Below are positions 3,867-11,650 of a stretch of DNA of 64,000 nt, one piece after another (the stretch's first letter is position 1; every line of letters begins with the position of its first letter). Origin of the DNA: Hymenobacter edaphi. Lineage in GTDB: Bacteria > Bacteroidota > Bacteroidia > Cytophagales > Hymenobacteraceae. The notes below the pieces were generated by a model. The model was not told the DNA's origin, did not search any database, and saw only the letters and a program-made list of their open reading frames with translations. The translations under genes were made by a program, and so were the position numbers. The stretch is from the NCBI RefSeq assembly GCF_003258365.1, contig NZ_QHKM01000002.1, positions 558,001 through 622,000 of the forward strand, written 5' to 3'.

Positions 3867-4568
3867 TTAGACGGTGGGGGCGGCGGGGTTGGGGGCATTT
3901 TCTTTGCGGGCGGCGGTGTTGATGGTTTGGCGGGCCGACTGGTAGGCGGTGTGGAACTGGGGATGATTGCGCTGGAAGCGGACCATGAACTTGTCGGCGC
4001 GGTTGCGGAGCAGGGCGTTGGCCTGGCGCAGGTCGGCGGCGAGGGACTGGGTGTGGGCTTTGCCGGTGGCGGCAGCTACGCGCGGGGTGGCCAGCTCGTC
4101 CTTGAAGGCCTTGAGGGCGGCGGCCAGCTCATCCAGCTCGGCGGCGGTGACGTCCTGGTCTTGGAGCTGGGGCAGCAGGATGGTGGCGCGCTCGTGGATG
4201 TTCTTGGCGATGCGCAGCAGGTCGTTGTCGGTGGAGCGGCTGAGCTGGCTTTCGGAGTAGTCGCTGTCGGTTTGGAGGTTGAGGTTGAGGTTGTCGGTGT
4301 CGTCGGCGTGGGCGTAGAGGGCGGCGGCCACTTCGGCGGCGCGCTGGGCCAGGTGCCGCTTGGTTTGCTTCTTGACGGCGCCGGGGGTAGCCGTGCGGGC
4401 GGCGCCCTGCTGGTTATCGGCGGTGGGGTCGAGTTCGGCCACCAGGTCGCGGAGCTGCTGGCGGGCCTTGCCGAAGGCGGCGTTGCCGGTGTAGAGGTCG
4501 GCGTACTCGTCGAGTACCCGCAGGGTGGCTTGCATCATTTGCAGCTTGGCCCGTTGCTTGTCCGTCAT
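3867..4568 (-). CDS. Conserved hypothetical cytoplasmic protein
   Basis: A 233-residue, largely helical protein that I do not recognise. It begins MTDKQRAKLQMMQATLRVLDEY, has no signal peptide or membrane segment, and is rich in A, L, Q, D and K with helical stretches near ELDELAAALKAFKDEL and in the C-terminal part. The tail (AARKENAPNPAAPTV) looks disordered. ATG 4568 was chosen because residues encoded upstream, though in an open frame to 4901, derive from a 21-bp tandem repeat and look non-coding. No neighbour gives a functional hint. Confidence 0.65.
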   Translation of the reverse strand: MTDKQRAKLQMMQATLRVLDEYADLYTGNAAFGKARQQLRDLVAELDPTADNQQGAARTATPGAVKKQTKRHLAQRAAEVAAALYAHADDTDNLNLNLQTDSDYSESQLSRSTDNDLLRIAKNIHERATILLPQLQDQDVTAAELDELAAALKAFKDELATPRVAAATGKAHTQSLAADLRQANALLRNRADKFMVRFQRNHPQFHTAYQSARQTINTAARKENAPNPAAPTV

Positions 4569-4988
4569 AGTGATTGGGTTGTAAGGGTTTGTTTGCGAGA
4601 AATATAGGCTACGGTCGAGGTGTTGGTAGCCGGCGGGAGCGGAATATTCTGCCAAGGCCGCTGCCGGGCTTGTCATGCGTGCTGCCGACCTTGTAATGGC
4701 TTCGGTCAGGCTTGCAATGCCCGCTGTCGACCTTGTAATGGCCGCTGTCAGCCTGGTACTGGCGTCGGTCGGGGATGTAATGGCCTCTGTCGACCTGGTA
4801 ATGCGTAGTGGCGGGCGCGTTACTCGTTCTGGCGGGCTTGTTATTGGTTTTGGGCGGGGCGCCTTACCCCCCGGCCCCCTACCCCGCTTCAGGCGCGACA
4901 TGAAATGGCGGGAGGGGCTGCCAGAGTCTATGGACAGGGCGTGGCTGCGGCCGGGCGGGACGGGTGCTGAGGAGACCGGGCAACGGGC
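4569..4988. other. Intergenic stretch dominated by repeats
   Basis: Holds the 21-bp tandem array (4660-4848) and a second copy of the C-rich motif (4859-4880). No convincing gene; the open frames are a by-product of the 21-bp periodicity. Confidence 0.6.
4660..4848. repeat. 21-bp imperfect tandem repeat, nine units
   Basis: Nine consecutive 21-bp units of the form GCTGTCGACCTTGTAATGGCC, each with several substitutions, run without spacers from 4660 to 4848. Because 21 is a multiple of three, the array is open on both strands and would read as heptads: roughly VDLVMAS on plus and AITRSTE on minus. It lies 92 bp upstream of the ATG at 4568 of the minus-strand gene and remains in frame with it. 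Confidence 0.85.
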
Positions 4989-5952: not shown

Positions 5953-6064
5953 TGTTGCTCAAGGGCGGCAGCCGCGGCTACCACCGGCGGCCTAGATTCC
6001 ACGGCCGGCTCGTTCATCAGCTGGCGGGCGGGCAGCACGCCGGGCACGTCGGTGATGGTGACGA
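5953..6064 (-). pseudogene. Detached remnant of an mfd 3' end
   Basis: On the minus strand this stretch reads VTITDVPGVLPARQL, identical to the Mfd C-terminal region encoded at 8220-8265. It then continues as MNEPAVESRPPVVAAAA, aligning with the true Mfd tail LTDLTIDAPEPVLAAR through mostly conservative changes (N/T, E/D, V/I, E/D, V/L). There is no start codon or upstream mfd body, so it is a fragment. The tail has no stop in frame until 5754, which suggests decay after separation. It marks the left edge of the two-gene cassette. Confidence 0.75.
6019..6064. repeat. Left copy of 46-bp perfect direct repeat (mfd-derived)
   Basis: Identical base for base to 8220-8265 and in the same orientation. 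The identity breaks sharply on both sides. Confidence 0.95.
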
Positions 6065-6128
6065 GGTGCCGACACCGCGCATCAATCAGGACAAGGCGCG
6101 TACTTTGTGCGAAACCCTGCTAACCACC

Positions 6129-7373
6129 ATGTCCGAAATCGAAGCCACGCCCCATGTGCCGCGCTTGACGTACCTGCGCATCCGCAACTACCGCGCCCTG
6201 CGCGACGTGGAGCTGCGCGACCTGACGCCGCTGACGGTGCTGGTGGGGCCTAACGGCAGCGGCAAGTCGACGGTGCTGGATGCGCTGGCGTTTCTGGCGG
6301 AGGCAGTATCGGGGAATCTGCAGCAGGCCTGGGAGAAGCGGAACCGCTTCGCGGGGATGCGGACGCGGGGGAGTGAGGGTGCTATTGAGTTTGAGGTAAG
6401 GGCTTCGATTACAGGCGATGTTGCTGTAAAGTATGAGTTGAGTATTAGCGAATCAGAAGGCGAGGTGTTCGTATCACACGAAGCATTCTACATCGTAGGA
6501 GGAATAACGAAGAGGTTATTTTACTCTTCAACAGAGGCGGCCTTAAAAAGGGCTTCAAAAGAGAAAATAGAGAGGAATGCATACTACAGTGAGGTATTTG
6601 AGGACATGCGGGTCATTCCTGCTGCAAATCCTTATCTGTTTTATTCTCCGCTGTTTGATGGAGGGAGTAAGCTGCGTTTTCATTATGAAATAAACTTTAC
6701 TAACCTGCTGACCTCCTACCGCTATATCCACCTAACCGATAGCCACGCAGTAGGCCAAACAGAGCAAGGGCCGCGGGAGCGGCTTTCCCCGAGTGGCGAC
6801 AACCTGCCCAACGTGCTCTACTATTTGCAGCAAAAGCATCCCGAGGTGCTGCAGGGCATCATCGGGGAGCTGCGGCGGCAGGTGCCGGCGCTGGCGGAGG
6901 TGCTGACGGAAGTAACTTCGGACGAGCGGCTGCTGCTGCGCTTCCGAGATGCGCCGTTTGAGAAGCCGCTGCCGGCGCAGTACATGTCGGATGGCACCTT
7001 GCGGCTCACGGCGCTGCTCACGCTGCTGCGGGAGCCCGAGGCGGCGGGGCTGCTGGGGCTGGAGGAGCCGGAAAACGAGCTGCACCCGCGCCTGCTGCCC
7101 CGGCTGGCGGAGGAACTGAGTCGGGCTACCGAGATGCGGCAGCTGCTGGTGGCCACGCATTCGCCAGCGCTGCTGGATGCCTTGGAGCCGGCGCAGGTCT
7201 GGATTCTGCATCGGGGCGCCGACGGCTATACCCAGGCCACGCGGGTAGCCGACCTGCCCGACGTCGTGGCTATGGTGGAAGAAGGCTCCCCGCTGGGCTA
7301 CCTCTGGGAGCGTAATTTCTTTGACGTGGGCGACCCGCTGGCCCCGCTTTCCCAGCAGCCAATCCGGGAGTAA
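6129..7373 (+). CDS. AAA (ABC/RecF-like) ATPase, candidate defence-system ATPase
   Basis: The 414-residue protein has a Walker A motif GPNGSGKST at about residues 41-49 after an IRNYRALRDVEL strand typical of SMC/RecF-like ATPases. Walker B is GLEEPENELHP near 310-320 and the switch/H-loop is ATHSPALLDAL near 341-351. This is the AAA_21 arrangement found in OLD-like and other phage-defence ATPases. Residues about 90-200 are encoded by visibly AT-rich DNA, unlike the rest. The stop is one base before the start of the next gene, so the two are co-transcribed and probably act together. ATG 6129 is preferred over the upstream open frame, which runs into the mfd-derived repeat. Confidence 0.85.
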   Translation: MSEIEATPHVPRLTYLRIRNYRALRDVELRDLTPLTVLVGPNGSGKSTVLDALAFLAEAVSGNLQQAWEKRNRFAGMRTRGSEGAIEFEVRASITGDVAVKYELSISESEGEVFVSHEAFYIVGGITKRLFYSSTEAALKRASKEKIERNAYYSEVFEDMRVIPAANPYLFYSPLFDGGSKLRFHYEINFTNLLTSYRYIHLTDSHAVGQTEQGPRERLSPSGDNLPNVLYYLQQKHPEVLQGIIGELRRQVPALAEVLTEVTSDERLLLRFRDAPFEKPLPAQYMSDGTLRLTALLTLLREPEAAGLLGLEEPENELHPRLLPRLAEELSRATEMRQLLVATHSPALLDALEPAQVWILHRGADGYTQATRVADLPDVVAMVEEGSPLGYLWERNFFDVGDPLAPLSQQPIRE

Positions 7374-7374
7374 T

Positions 7375-7983
7375 ATGCGGGTCGAGTTTCTGTTGGAGGA
7401 GGAATCGGCGGAGGAGGCCCTACGCATCTTGCTGCCCCGGCTGCTACCGGCGCATTATACGCCCAAGCTGCGGGTGTTCCGGGGCTGTCAGGATTTGCTC
7501 AAGCAGCTGACGACCGTGCTCAAGGGCTACAAGCGGCGCCTGGAGCAGCCGGGGCAGCAGGACTTGCGCGTGGTGGTGCTGGTGGACGCTGATGACATAG
7601 CTGAGCGCCGGCGGCAGGAGCTAGAGCAGGCGGCTACGGAGGCGGGGCTGCTAACGTACGCGCAGGCGGCCGGCCAGCGGCCGTTCTACGTGGTGAATAC
7701 TCTGGCCGTGCAGGAGCTGGAAGCCTGGTTTTTGGGTGACCCGCTGGCTATTCAGACGGCCTACCCCCGGGTGCGGCCCCAGCATTTCGGCGGCTTGCCC
7801 GACAACCCCGATACCGTGGCGGAAGCTTGGGAAGCGCTGCTGCGGGTGTTGCAAAAGGCCGATCCGAAAGCAACCAAGGCGAAGGTACGTTGGGCTGAAA
7901 CCATTGCCCCGCACCTGGATATCGAGCGGAACAGTTCGCCCAGCTTTCAATACTTCCGGCAGTGTCTGGCAAGTCTGGAATAG
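7375..7983 (+). CDS. DUF4276 / TOPRIM-like partner protein
   Basis: The 202-residue protein starts one base after the ATPase stop. Its N-terminus MRVEFLLEEESAEEALRILL resembles the VEGxTE strand of DUF4276 and related TOPRIM-like nuclease folds. An acidic cluster VVVLVDADD (about residues 68-76) and QELEAWFLGD (about 113-122) give further candidate metal ligands. Proteins of this kind are repeatedly paired with AAA ATPases in defence modules such as AbiL and PARIS-like systems, as I recall them. The fold assignment comes from motif resemblance and needs a profile search. A strong terminator lies about 40 bp downstream. Confidence 0.7.
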   Translation: MRVEFLLEEESAEEALRILLPRLLPAHYTPKLRVFRGCQDLLKQLTTVLKGYKRRLEQPGQQDLRVVVLVDADDIAERRRQELEQAATEAGLLTYAQAAGQRPFYVVNTLAVQELEAWFLGDPLAIQTAYPRVRPQHFGGLPDNPDTVAEAWEALLRVLQKADPKATKAKVRWAETIAPHLDIERNSSPSFQYFRQCLASLE

Positions 7984-8022
7984 ATGGATGGCTTATGTGA
8001 TGGTCATGTGACGATAGAACGA

Positions 8023-8057
8023 AAAAGCGGCGTCTGCAACCTGCAGACGCCGCTTTT
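8023..8057. terminator. Bidirectional intrinsic terminator
   Basis: A 16-bp perfect stem (8023-8038 with 8042-8057) around a 3-base loop has A and T runs at its base, so it can act on both strands. It separates the plus-strand cassette from the convergent mfd gene. Confidence 0.85.
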
Positions 8058-8080
8058 CTGTGTGACGGGTTAATCTCAGA

Positions 8081-8118
8081 CGAAGCGGTAGAGATGCTTC
8101 GACAAGCTCAGCATGACG
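8081..8118. repeat. Single arm of the dispersed 38-bp intergenic repeat
   Basis: Shares CGAAGCGGTAGAGATGCTTC and the CTCAGCA block with the arm at 486-523. It differs in the middle (ACAA for CGGG) and near the end. No inverted partner lies nearby. Confidence 0.7.
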
Positions 8119-8143
8119 TTCTTATTGCGCTATCTTTTCCTGC

Positions 8144-11100
8144 TTACCCCTCGTCCTCATCATCTGTCACGCGGGCGGCCAGCACGGGCTCGGGGGCGTC
8201 GATGGTCAGGTCGGTGAGGAGCTGGCGGGCGGGCAGCACGCCGGGCACGTCGGTGATGGTGACGATGAGCTGCTCCTTGCGCTCCTTCATGCTGGCGCGG
8301 CGGGGGTGGGTTTGGACGTAGTTCAGGATCTGGCCGAACTGCTCGCCCTGGAAGTAGGGCTCGTGGCCTTCGCCCGCGTCGAGGTAGCCCTTGAGGGTGT
8401 CCTTTTTGAGCGAGACTTTGCTGAAGCCCACGCGGCAGGCCTGCCAGCGCAGGCGCACGATGTCGGCCAGCTGTTCCACCTCGGGCGGGAGGGGGCCGAA
8501 GCGGTCCGTCATGCTGGCGAGCAGGCGGCGCAGCTCCTCGGGCTCCCGGGCGCGGTCCAGCTTGCTGTAGAGCTGCAGGCGCTCGGAGACGGAGCCCACG
8601 TAGGTATCGGGGATGAGGATTTGCAGGTCGGTTTCCACGTTGCACTCCCGGGGGCGGGCAAAGTCGGCGGCGTCCTTGAGGCGGCCGGTGGTATCGCCCA
8701 GGAATAGGTCGCGGAACTCTGTTTCCTTGAGCTCCTGCACGGCTTCGTCGAGAATCTGGTGGTAGGTTTCGTAGCCCAGGTCGTTGATGAAGCCCGACTG
8801 CTCGCCGCCGAGCAGGTTGCCCGCGCCGCGGATGTCCAGGTCGCGCATGGCCACGTTGAAGCCCGCGCCGAGGTCCGAAAACTCTTCCAGGGTGCTCAGG
8901 CGCTTGCGGGCGTCGGCGGGCAACCCCGCCACGGGCGGGGTGAGCAGGTAGCAGTAGGCTTTCTTGTTGGAGCGGCCCACGCGCCCGCGCATCTGGTGCA
9001 GGTCGGAGAGGCCGTGCATGTGGGCGCGGTTGATGATGATGGTGTTGGCGTTCGGAATGTCGAGGCCCGACTCGATGAGGTTGGTGGATACCAGCACGTC
9101 GTAGTCGTGCTCCACGAACTGCATCATGCGCTTTTCCAGCACGTCGCCCTCCAGCTGCCCGTGGATGCTGGTGATGCGGGCGTCGGGCACCAGGCGCTGA
9201 ATCAGGGCGGCCTGCTCGGTGAGGTCCTTCACGCGGTTGTGGACGTAGAACACCTGCCCGCCGCGCTTCAACTCGCGGGCAATGGCGTCGCGCACCAGGT
9301 GCTCGTCGAACACGGCCAACTCCGTCTGCACCGGCTGGCGGTTGGGCGGCGGCGTGCTGATGACGGACAGGTCGCGGGCGCCCATCAGGGAGAAGTGCAG
9401 GGTGCGCGGAATGGGCGTGGCGGTGAGCGTGAGCGTGTCCACGTTCACCTTCAACTCCTTGAGCTTGTCCTTGGTCTTGACGCCGAACTTCTGCTCCTCG
9501 TCGATGATGAGCAAACCCAGCTCCTTGAACTTGATGTCCTTGTTGGTGAGCCGGTGGGTGCCGATGAGGATGTCGGTCTTGCCCTCGGCCACCTTTTCCA
9601 GGGTGGCCTTGGCCTGCTTGGTGGTCTTGAAGCGGTTGATGTAGTCGACGGTGACGGGCAGCTCGCCCAGCCGGTCGCGGAAGGTCTTGAAGTGCTGCAT
9701 GGCCAGGATGGTGGTGGGCACCAGCACGGCCACCTGCTTGCCGTCGGCCACGGCCTTGAAGGCGGCCCGGATAGCTACCTCCGTCTTGCCGAAGCCCACG
9801 TCGCCGCACACCAGGCGGTCCATCGGGTGGGGCAGCTCCATATCGTGCTTCACGTCCTCGGTGGCCTTGGCTTGGTCGGGGGTGTCCTCGTAGATAAAGC
9901 TGGATTCCAGCTCGGCCTGCATGAAGGAGTCCTTGGCGAAGGCGTGGCCGGGCGCGGTTTTGCGCTTGGCGTAGAGGCGGATGAGGTCGGCGGCAATGTC
10001 CTTGACCTTTTTCTTGACCGCCTTTTTCTTGTTTTCCCACTCCGGGGAGCCCAGCTTGCTCATGGTCGGCGGCGTGCCCTCGGCCCCCGAGTACTTGGCA
10101 ATCTTGTGCAGAGCGTGGATGCTGACGGTCAGCACGTCGTCGTCGCGGTACACCAGGCGGATGGCTTCCTGCTGGTGCCCGTTGATTTCCACCTGCGTGA
10201 GGCCGGCGAAGCGGGCAATGCCGTGGTCCTGGTGCACCACGTAGTCGCCGGGCTGCAGGGTGCGCAGATCTTTGAGGGTCAGGGCCTTTTTCTTGGAGAA
10301 CTTGCGCTTCTCCTGGGCCCGGTAGTACCGCTCGAATATCTGGTGGTCGGTGTACACCAGCAGCTTGCGCTCCTCGTCGATGTAGCCTTCGCGCAGGCCC
10401 AGGGCCAGGTGCTGAAAGCGGATTTCGCGGCCCAGCTCGTCGAAGATGGTGCGCAGCCGGTCGAGCTGCCGCATGGATTCGGCGGTGAGGATGGTGGTGA
10501 AGTCGCGCTGCTGGTTGTCGAGCAGGTTCTTCGTGAGGCGGCCGAAGTCCTTGTTGAATGAGGGCTGGGGCTTGGCCGTGAACTGCACCTGCTCGGCCTC
10601 CTTGTAGTAGAACCGCTTGCCGAATTCCAGCACCGGAAATCGCTCCAGGTGCTTTTTGAGCGCCTTGGTCGTCTCAAACAGCTCCTCCGGCTTCGACACG
10701 ATTTTGACGCCGTGACCCTCTTCCAGCACGGTCTTGAAGTTCTGCTCGGCCTTGTCGAACTGCTCACCCACCACGTCGAGCAGCTGGCGCACGTCCTTGG
10801 TCCAGATGGCGGTATTGGCGGGCAAAAACTCCAGGAACCCCTCGCGCCGCTCGGTCAGCAGCTTGGTTTGCACGTTCGGCACGATGCTGATGCTGTCCTG
10901 CCGCTCCACCGACAGCTGCGACTCGGGGTTGAAGGTCCGGATCGAGTCGATTTCGTCGCCGAACAGCTCGATGCGGTAGGGCAGCTCGTTGGCGTAGCTG
11001 AACACGTCGACGATGCCGCCGCGGATGGCGTACTGCCCGGCCTCGTACACGAAATCGGTGCGCTCGAAGTCGTACTCGGCCAGCAGCTCACCCAGGAAAT

Positions 11101-11650
11101 TCACGTCCAGCCGGTCCCCGACCTTGGTCGTGAACGTGTTCTGCACCAGGCTCTGGCGGTTGATTACCTTTTCGCTCAATGCCTCGGGGTAGGTCACGAT
11201 AAGCGCGCCTTTGGGCAGCGGCTCCCCGTCCTGCTTGGCCTTGGCTTTGGTTTTCTCGTCCGCCGTCTTGCCCTTCTCACCCGATTTGCCCGAGAGCCGG
11301 TTCAGCACCTCGGCGCGCATGAGCACGTTGGCGTTTTCCGTCTCGTCGAAGGAATAGGAGCGTTTGTAGGAGCTGGGGAAAGTCAGCACTTCCTCCCGCT
11401 CGCCCACCAGGTGCTGCAGGTCACTGGCGAAGTAGCTGGCTTCTTCCCGGTCGTGCAGGATGAAGAGCAGGTGCTCGTCGGGCCGCTCCAGGTGCAGGGT
11501 GGCGGCCACCACCGCGTCCTGGCTGCCGACGAGGCCGCGCAGGTGGAAGCGTTGGCCGGCGCCGCCTTCCAGGCCGGGCTTAAGGCTCAGCGCGAGGGTC
11601 TGGATGTCGGGGTCGAGCGAGTAAAGGCGGAGGAATTCGGAGGTCTGCAC
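8144..11650 (-). CDS. mfd: Transcription-repair coupling factor Mfd
   Basis: The 1168-residue protein has the normal length and order for Mfd: a UvrB-like N-terminal part, an RNA polymerase-interacting domain around DYVVHQDHGIARF (about residue 470), then an SF2 translocase with Walker A GDVGFGKTEVA (about 613-623) and DEEQ (about 717). A RecG-like TRG segment and the C-terminal regulatory domain complete it. Mfd displaces RNA polymerase stalled at lesions and recruits UvrA. The start is GTG at 11650. The last 25 residues lie beyond the 46-bp repeat and differ from the detached tail at 5953-6018, so the C-terminus may have been exchanged. Confidence 0.97.
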   Translation of the reverse strand: MQTSEFLRLYSLDPDIQTLALSLKPGLEGGAGQRFHLRGLVGSQDAVVAATLHLERPDEHLLFILHDREEASYFASDLQHLVGEREEVLTFPSSYKRSYSFDETENANVLMRAEVLNRLSGKSGEKGKTADEKTKAKAKQDGEPLPKGALIVTYPEALSEKVINRQSLVQNTFTTKVGDRLDVNFLGELLAEYDFERTDFVYEAGQYAIRGGIVDVFSYANELPYRIELFGDEIDSIRTFNPESQLSVERQDSISIVPNVQTKLLTERREGFLEFLPANTAIWTKDVRQLLDVVGEQFDKAEQNFKTVLEEGHGVKIVSKPEELFETTKALKKHLERFPVLEFGKRFYYKEAEQVQFTAKPQPSFNKDFGRLTKNLLDNQQRDFTTILTAESMRQLDRLRTIFDELGREIRFQHLALGLREGYIDEERKLLVYTDHQIFERYYRAQEKRKFSKKKALTLKDLRTLQPGDYVVHQDHGIARFAGLTQVEINGHQQEAIRLVYRDDDVLTVSIHALHKIAKYSGAEGTPPTMSKLGSPEWENKKKAVKKKVKDIAADLIRLYAKRKTAPGHAFAKDSFMQAELESSFIYEDTPDQAKATEDVKHDMELPHPMDRLVCGDVGFGKTEVAIRAAFKAVADGKQVAVLVPTTILAMQHFKTFRDRLGELPVTVDYINRFKTTKQAKATLEKVAEGKTDILIGTHRLTNKDIKFKELGLLIIDEEQKFGVKTKDKLKELKVNVDTLTLTATPIPRTLHFSLMGARDLSVISTPPPNRQPVQTELAVFDEHLVRDAIARELKRGGQVFYVHNRVKDLTEQAALIQRLVPDARITSIHGQLEGDVLEKRMMQFVEHDYDVLVSTNLIESGLDIPNANTIIINRAHMHGLSDLHQMRGRVGRSNKKAYCYLLTPPVAGLPADARKRLSTLEEFSDLGAGFNVAMRDLDIRGAGNLLGGEQSGFINDLGYETYHQILDEAVQELKETEFRDLFLGDTTGRLKDAADFARPRECNVETDLQILIPDTYVGSVSERLQLYSKLDRAREPEELRRLLASMTDRFGPLPPEVEQLADIVRLRWQACRVGFSKVSLKKDTLKGYLDAGEGHEPYFQGEQFGQILNYVQTHPRRASMKERKEQLIVTITDVPGVLPARQLLTDLTIDAPEPVLAARVTDDEDEG
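8220..8265. repeat. Right copy of 46-bp perfect direct repeat (inside mfd)
   Basis: Lies within the 3' part of mfd, about 75 bp before its stop codon, and matches 6019-6064 perfectly in direct orientation. Confidence 0.95.

Follow-up and report, generated by a model that had tools for sequence, protein, structure and literature searches.

A HEC-01 ATPase/DUF4276 pair with a replaced ATPase centre behind mfd in Hymenobacter, and a probable integrase-free route of cargo gain at this locus

How defence systems enter genomes at sites without mobile genes is an open question, and it is raised by the mfd locus of Hymenobacter edaphi. The window, i.e., the whole stretch of DNA that was analysed (64,000 nucleotides; contig NZ_QHKM01000002.1, positions 558,001 to 622,000, forward strand), contains a perfect 46-bp direct repeat (6019-6064 and 8220-8265), whose identity ends at both sides and whose 46-mer occurs twice in the window. 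The right copy lies within mfd (8144-11650, minus strand) at positions 77-122 counted from the mfd 3′ end. Enclosed by the repeat are two plus-strand genes with a 1-base gap between them, gene 1 (6129-7373, 414 aa) and gene 2 (7375-7983, 202 aa). A first-pass annotation, made from the sequence alone, had reported this arrangement correctly and had read it as an undescribed ATPase/TOPRIM-like defence pair using the mfd end as an integration hotspot. The locus as a whole is probably best explained by an integrase-free landing site at mfd that is occupied by HEC-01, a putative sensor/nuclease pair with a replaced centre in the sensor.

The mfd similarity of the left repeat copy extends beyond the 46 bp: the stretch 5971-6064 and the live mfd 3′ end in G005, another genome of the same genus, share 96% identity. 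The left copy was assigned to a displaced, truncated mfd 3′ end (5970..6066, minus strand), of which 6019-6064 is the perfectly repeated part. A third mfd 3′ end, with stop codon, was found about 510-630 bases left of the first base of the window (region L009, 10369-10490); the left repeat copy and its surroundings also match this third end, about 0.5 kb outside the window edge, and the displaced end in the window is 93% identical to it. Three mfd 3′ ends are hence arranged serially: next to the live mfd comes the HEC-01 pair, then one displaced end and, separated from it by about 6.5 kb of other genes, the second displaced end. The live gene (8144..11650), the C-terminal part of which was matched in 150/150 family genomes, ends in a tail of a different type (B-type; 8144..8219, minus strand) that is common to G002 and unlike the A-type tail in six other genus genomes. 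The last 25 codons of the window mfd are of B type, and both displaced copies are of A type, not B; among the genus genomes, only G002 matches the B-type tail.

Gene 1 was confirmed as AAA_21 (Pfam, 4.1e-37) and gene 2 as DUF4276 (Pfam, 1.8e-21), and the ATPase motifs quoted in the annotation (GPNGSGKST, GLEEPENELHP, and ATHSPALLDAL) are all present in the translation of gene 1, with K46 as the Walker A lysine. The claim that the pair was undescribed did not hold, as PADLOC models matched gene 1 as HEC-01A (3.7e-130) and gene 2 as HEC-01B (2.6e-68); the pair falls in the candidate defence type HEC-01, in keeping with its annotation as a defence-type module. Gene 1 was also matched, more weakly than by HEC-01A, by the PADLOC models of AriA (1.5e-34), AbiLi, and GajA. 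Both HEC-01 models were matched by adjacent genes in the known order, and HEC-01A and HEC-01B were adjacent in 29/29 loci read. HEC-01 is an Hma-embedded candidate (PADLOC-DB 2.0.0; the available part of PMC12988326 cites the Payne et al. 2024 preprint), and that part of PMC12988326 reports several HECs as active, HEC-06 included, and does not name HEC-01.

The TOPRIM-like features annotated for gene 2 were recovered at the level of residues, and more weakly in the predicted structure. E8, E9, D71, and D73, i.e., the TOPRIM-type Glu and Asp-x-Asp, are invariant across 34 HEC-01B sequences, the predicted structure is confident (pLDDT 93), and among solved structures Foldseek ranks an OLD TOPRIM region first, at a weak E-value of 0.02. 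The absence of any Foldseek match for HEC-01B at E ≤ 0.001 weighs against this assignment; a metabolic family, which the annotation had named as the finding that would undo its reading, was not matched by gene 2. The HEC-01A model reached a pLDDT of 80, with values partly below 50 in the centre, and was closest to PtuA and OLD ATPases (TM about 0.4-0.5), the best matches being PtuA (1.8e-13 and weaker, TM 0.37-0.52).

The effector of PARIS, AriB, is a DUF4435 protein, and PtuB of Septu is an HNH nuclease. Gene 2 differs from both, as it is a DUF4276 protein (DUF4435 gave no match to it at E up to 1, and only DUF4276 matched) and TOPRIM-like, while PtuA and retron-linked PtuA are the best Foldseek matches of its partner. 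With PARIS, the pair shares the two-gene layout of ABC ATPase and TOPRIM-type protein (AriA/AriB; available part of PMC12409363) as well as the AriA matches of gene 1. With OLD and Gabija (available part of PMC10568477), it shares the ATPase and TOPRIM parts, and HEC-01A matches OLD 6p74; the window pair is, however, encoded in two separate reading frames, and a single protein combining ATPase and TOPRIM as in OLD family nucleases was not present. In PARIS, the AriA ATPase keeps AriB inactive until a phage protein binds (available part of PMC12409363). If the pair works like PARIS and OLD, HEC-01A would act as an ATP-binding sensor and restrain the TOPRIM-like HEC-01B in an inactive state; on arrival of a phage trigger, HEC-01B would cut nucleic acid. 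HEC-01 as found here is presumably a defence pair.

For comparison of the locus across the family, 68 mfd 3′ flanks were analysed, comprising the 8 genus genomes, the next 40 in the family listing (G040 omitted, contig end), and 20 hand-picked ones, 8 of which had been chosen for extra mfd C-terminus matches. Displaced mfd ends numbered 17, in 14 genomes, and H. gummosus adds two; the 48 flanks that were not hand-picked contained five genomes with displaced ends and 16 with AT-rich DNA behind mfd. GC content of the first 1.5 kb behind mfd was below 45% in 28/68 flanks, versus 2/65 at 6-8.5 kb. Within the genus, mfd was found in 8/8 genomes with differing genes behind it and a first 1.5 kb below 45% GC in 5/8, which bears out the annotated hotspot with other cargo in relatives. 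An extra mfd C-terminus was detected in 10/204 family genomes with the last 75 residues as query, in all ten cases behind the live gene; the displaced mfd ends in G000, G004, and G006 escape this search. The same search with mutS as control gene gave an extra match in 1/204, at unequal sensitivity, as the mfd query came from G140 and the mutS query from this genus. The malic enzyme C-terminus was dropped as a control locus because of at least two matches in many genomes.

Turnover of the cargo is seen in G140 and G136, in which the mfd ends are 97% identical, the outer flanks are common at 74-90%, and the cargo adjoining mfd is wholly different. Serial displaced ends with unrelated cargo between them were found in G000 (two), G016 (three), and H. 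gummosus (two); those of G016 (one of them short) separate a 406-residue protein, a 249-residue protein, and HEC-01. The AT-rich open reading frames (ORFs) near mfd numbered 59; scans of single ORFs covered 30 of them with Pfam and 20 with PADLOC. Pfam matched 21/30, of which 19 were classed by us as defence-type: NACHT (3), OLD with TOPRIM, HEPN, GmrSD, metallophosphatase with STAND, AAA ATPases (7), DUF4435 beside an ATPase, weak DUF4276, AIPR, HATPase with HSDR, and KAP, with two of the 19 (one NACHT and the DUF4276) lying under Pfam's cut-off. PADLOC matched 5/10 ORFs at 1e-10 and 3/10 others at 1e-5, and when all 59 were scanned as a set, 10/59 matched the AriA model. These are raw counts and not a measure of enrichment over control ORFs. 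A DUF4435 gene and an AAA ATPase, PARIS-like by Pfam, lie directly behind mfd in G146 (region L096, 709-2576); the DUF4435 protein had no PADLOC match at 1e-10. A protein of about 241 residues recurs near mfd at 15 places in 14/68 regions (e.g., L043, 1277-2002); in G006 and G004 it is the only cargo.

The mfd 3′ end in Hymenobacter is a core defence hotspot in the sense of a conserved core-gene flank with diverse, often defence-like cargo. It resembles the core defence hotspots of Pseudomonas aeruginosa (available part of PMC10250203) in the core-gene flank, the changing defence cargo, and the frequent lack of a mobile gene, and differs in that displaced core-gene ends record the gains at mfd. 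Such ends are countable scars, from which it can be read across a family how many gains a single housekeeping locus has had, in what order, and with which edges. No publication on this locus or on the HEC-01A centre was found in a search by title and abstract opening, the scope of which excluded most subscription journals and preprints.

As to the route of entry, the duplicated gene end had been taken in the first-pass annotation as the mark of an integrating element that preserves its target. The break points in mfd do not form a single attachment core, as they lie anywhere between 102 and 406 nt before the stop in the 17 displaced copies, and the cargo edges of different cassettes look unalike at the left junctions. 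The absence of an integrase noted for the window extends to relatives: no tyrosine recombinase was found within 20 kb of mfd in 8/8 genomes searched, and no serine recombinase within the same distance in 14/14 (the contigs of G006 and G175 end about 2 kb past mfd). A motif scan for tyrosine recombinases in the 68 regions also found none; it was run without a positive control and was not relied on. Varied break points, the lack of an integrase or resolvase nearby in the genomes searched, and unalike cargo edges together fit a recombination event that is anchored in mfd on one side and joins without homology on the other. Incoming DNA bearing its own mfd 3′ end would recombine with the resident mfd on that side, and its far end would be joined, independently of homology, to a point within the resident mfd end; the incoming end would become live, the old end would be left behind the cargo, and repeated rounds would stack cassettes behind mfd. 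A published model of the same form exists for arrays of the type VI secretion system (T6SS), in which homology-facilitated illegitimate recombination proceeds from one homologous anchor (available part of PMC5361080). T6SS/Rhs sequential displacement shares the single anchor, the displaced 3′ ends, and the stacked cargo; the displaced gene there is an effector, whereas here it is a housekeeping repair gene with anti-phage-like cargo. Displaced ends, varied cargo, and variable break points were observed directly, and from them we infer that mfd-anchored recombination fits better than an integrase, the joining mechanism itself being proposed by us.

Several observations weigh against joining of this kind. 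Four toxin-antitoxin cassettes, the genes of which we take to be HicA/HicB, have the hicA stop 0-4 nt from the mfd fragment (4/4) at differing mfd positions (182, 214, 234, and 243); these cassettes lie in G174, G105, G133, and G175 (regions L101, L066, L103, and L102, respectively), and a constant hicBA cassette edge is not predicted by random joining. Three displaced copies of the genus break within 3 nt of one another. Ku was absent in 14/14 genomes, with a positive control search in Bacillus subtilis, which speaks against Ku-dependent end joining in these genomes. The coinciding genus break points were considered as an attachment core and rejected, since the junction of H. gummosus suggests, at least partly, one inherited junction; shared ancestry of these junctions is likely, and not proven for G006.

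Site-specific integration, for which accretion of cis-mobilisable elements is the term, is the alternative that survives best. An integrase acting in trans or since lost would have inserted the cargo into the mfd 3′ end and left attL/attR behind. Restoration of a gene 3′ end by the incoming piece is typical of such elements, and the constant hicBA edge and the 3-nt coincidence in the genus are in its favour; given the spread of the break points, the unalike left junctions, and the recombinase-free surroundings of mfd in the genomes searched, we consider it unlikely.

The insertion of HEC-01 at mfd is old and not recent, as its junction is common to Hymenobacter gummosus (L143), which carries the same pair at the same junction with about 91% DNA identity. 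The live mfd end of H. gummosus is of A type and that of the window genome of B type, as in G002. HEC-01B was matched in 36/204 family genomes; 29 of the 36 matches lie within 15 kb on the mfd 3′ side and are convergent with mfd (6 partial; compared by hand), four lie elsewhere (G055, 62 kb off; G028, G109, and G140, on other contigs), and three were unplaced (G175, G186, and G180). In a scan of named genomes, the mfd C-terminus was within the fetched 10 kb in 10/40 loci, all ten from Hymenobacter. Distances of the conserved part of HEC-01A partly follow those of mfd (Mantel r 0.51, 27 taxa, 0/2000 permutations), and clashes with mfd persist for G016/G077 and G146/G115 when the centre is left out. 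An earlier impression that HEC-01 trees strongly clash with mfd was discarded because it was inflated by the variable centre and weakened once the centre was removed. These comparisons point to a mixed history of inheritance and exchange. Plain inheritance, in which HEC-01 would long have been fixed beside mfd and the additional mfd ends would be local duplications without foreign DNA, accords with the placement of most matches 3′ of mfd, with the H. gummosus junction, and with the Mantel correlation. It is nevertheless quite unlikely in view of the two clashes, of AT-rich cargo that differs between close species, of displaced copies that bracket unrelated cargo, and of the patchy distribution: the pair occurs in 1/8 genus genomes searched, so that the finding named in the annotation as fatal to its reading, the same two genes in all relatives, was not obtained.

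The patchy presence also bears on whether HEC-01 is a defence system at all. In a search for carriers, four loci in viral contigs (26-40% identity), one phage record, and seven plasmid records were matched, the plasmids being from Synechocystis, Meiothermus, Rahnella, and Pseudomonas; none of the viral or plasmid matches was a phage or plasmid carrier from Hymenobacter. This absence, the GC-rich frame of the pair, and its long residence near mfd would suit a housekeeping or stress-related ATPase-nuclease pair, an explanation that we hold to be improbable given the patchy presence, the exchanged centre, the placement by PADLOC, and the defence-type genes that other species carry at this site.

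The centre of HEC-01A was noticed through H. gummosus, in which HEC-01B is 96% identical and HEC-01A only 73%. By comparison across relatives, an exchanged AT-rich segment was delimited at about residues 91-195 (6399..6713, plus strand). Across 30 Hymenobacter HEC-01A in blocks of 20 residues, mean identity was 68-95% in residues 1-80 and 201-400 and 15-46% in 81-200. Identity of the centre averaged 0.255 over all pairs, versus 0.219 for shuffled sequence, and the nearest neighbour by centre was the nearest by flanks in 2/30. Third-position GC was 0.37 in the centre versus 0.79 and 0.82 in the flanks, and lower in the centre in 30/30. The boundaries are sharp: in 10/10 close pairs tested, DNA identity is 0.78-1.0 outside and 0.22-0.36 inside limits that lie at residues 89-92 and 190-196; the left boundary is marked by ATTGAGTTTGAGGT (exact in 18/30) and the right boundary starts with TCC TAC (26/30). 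Among 57 pairs with flanks at least 90% identical, centres were at most 40% identical in 50 and at least 60% in 6. Outside Hymenobacter, the centre of 24 HEC-01A (many from Poribacteria) evolves with the flanks (0.89 in 14 pairs with flanks ≥0.9) and has no consistent composition shift, i.e., the exchange sets Hymenobacter HEC-01A apart from these 24 sequences. A profile of the 30 centres weakly finds centres from other phyla, so that the centre seems to be a single domain subject to extreme replacement. Among the 30 loci, four were not placed beside mfd (G028, G055, and G109 elsewhere, G175 unplaced), and the exchange therefore belongs to the gene itself rather than to its position at mfd.

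Replacement, composition, and boundaries of the centre were observed directly; as their cause, we infer recombination in the conserved flanking sequence, which would replace about residues 91-195 and retune phage sensing, and the centre looks like an exchanged recognition domain. In G097, AT-rich codons extend beyond the right boundary, which would be expected of an AT-rich HEC-01A-like donor gene. Targeted hypermutation in place, as in diversity-generating retroelements (DGRs), would account for a change limited to one short, sharp-ended segment with an A+T shift in 30/30, and is very unlikely because replacement is near all-or-none (50/57 versus 6/57 pairs), centre and flank neighbours rarely concur (2/30), no second, template, or silent copy of the centre was found in the window, in 12 testable loci, or in this genome, and no reverse transcriptase was found by a crude motif scan of two stretches. 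DGR-diversified sensors (available part of PMC10907252) likewise confine hypervariability to a short part of a putative defence sensor; the differences are the missing template copy, the replacement of a whole segment, and the composition shift seen here.

Natural near-chimeras, HEC-01A ATPases that are unrelated over about 105 residues and 99% identical elsewhere, make it testable whether the centre sets phage specificity in ATPase plus TOPRIM systems; G163 and G123 carry alleles whose flanks are nearly the same. The fullest version of this account, which we advance only tentatively, is a modular receptor whose recognition domain is swapped between fixed boundaries (ATTGAGTTTGAGGT and TCCTAC) from an AT-rich HEC-01A-like pool, with mfd as an integrase-free docking site that records each gain as a displaced end.

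The remaining features of the cassette lie at its edges. The left edge and the HEC-01A leader (6065..6128, plus strand), delimited from the sequence, contain TACTTTG at 6101-6107, which we take to resemble the Bacteroidota -7 box TAnnTTTG, and a CCGCGTACTTTGT-like stretch upstream of HEC-01A is also found in G016, G077, and G085. Between HEC-01B and mfd, a terminator-like GC-rich inverted repeat with A and T runs (8022..8059) was recognised by eye from the sequence, without a terminator scan. It is followed by a dispersed repeat (8067..8128), which a genome search placed at about 70 sites in this genome, frequently in closely spaced inverted pairs, and which occurs in dozens of copies in each of the seven other genus genomes. 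Further left in the window, a 21-base tandem array (4656-4844; copies 62-76% alike) lies at the N-terminal end of the reading frame 3867-4901.

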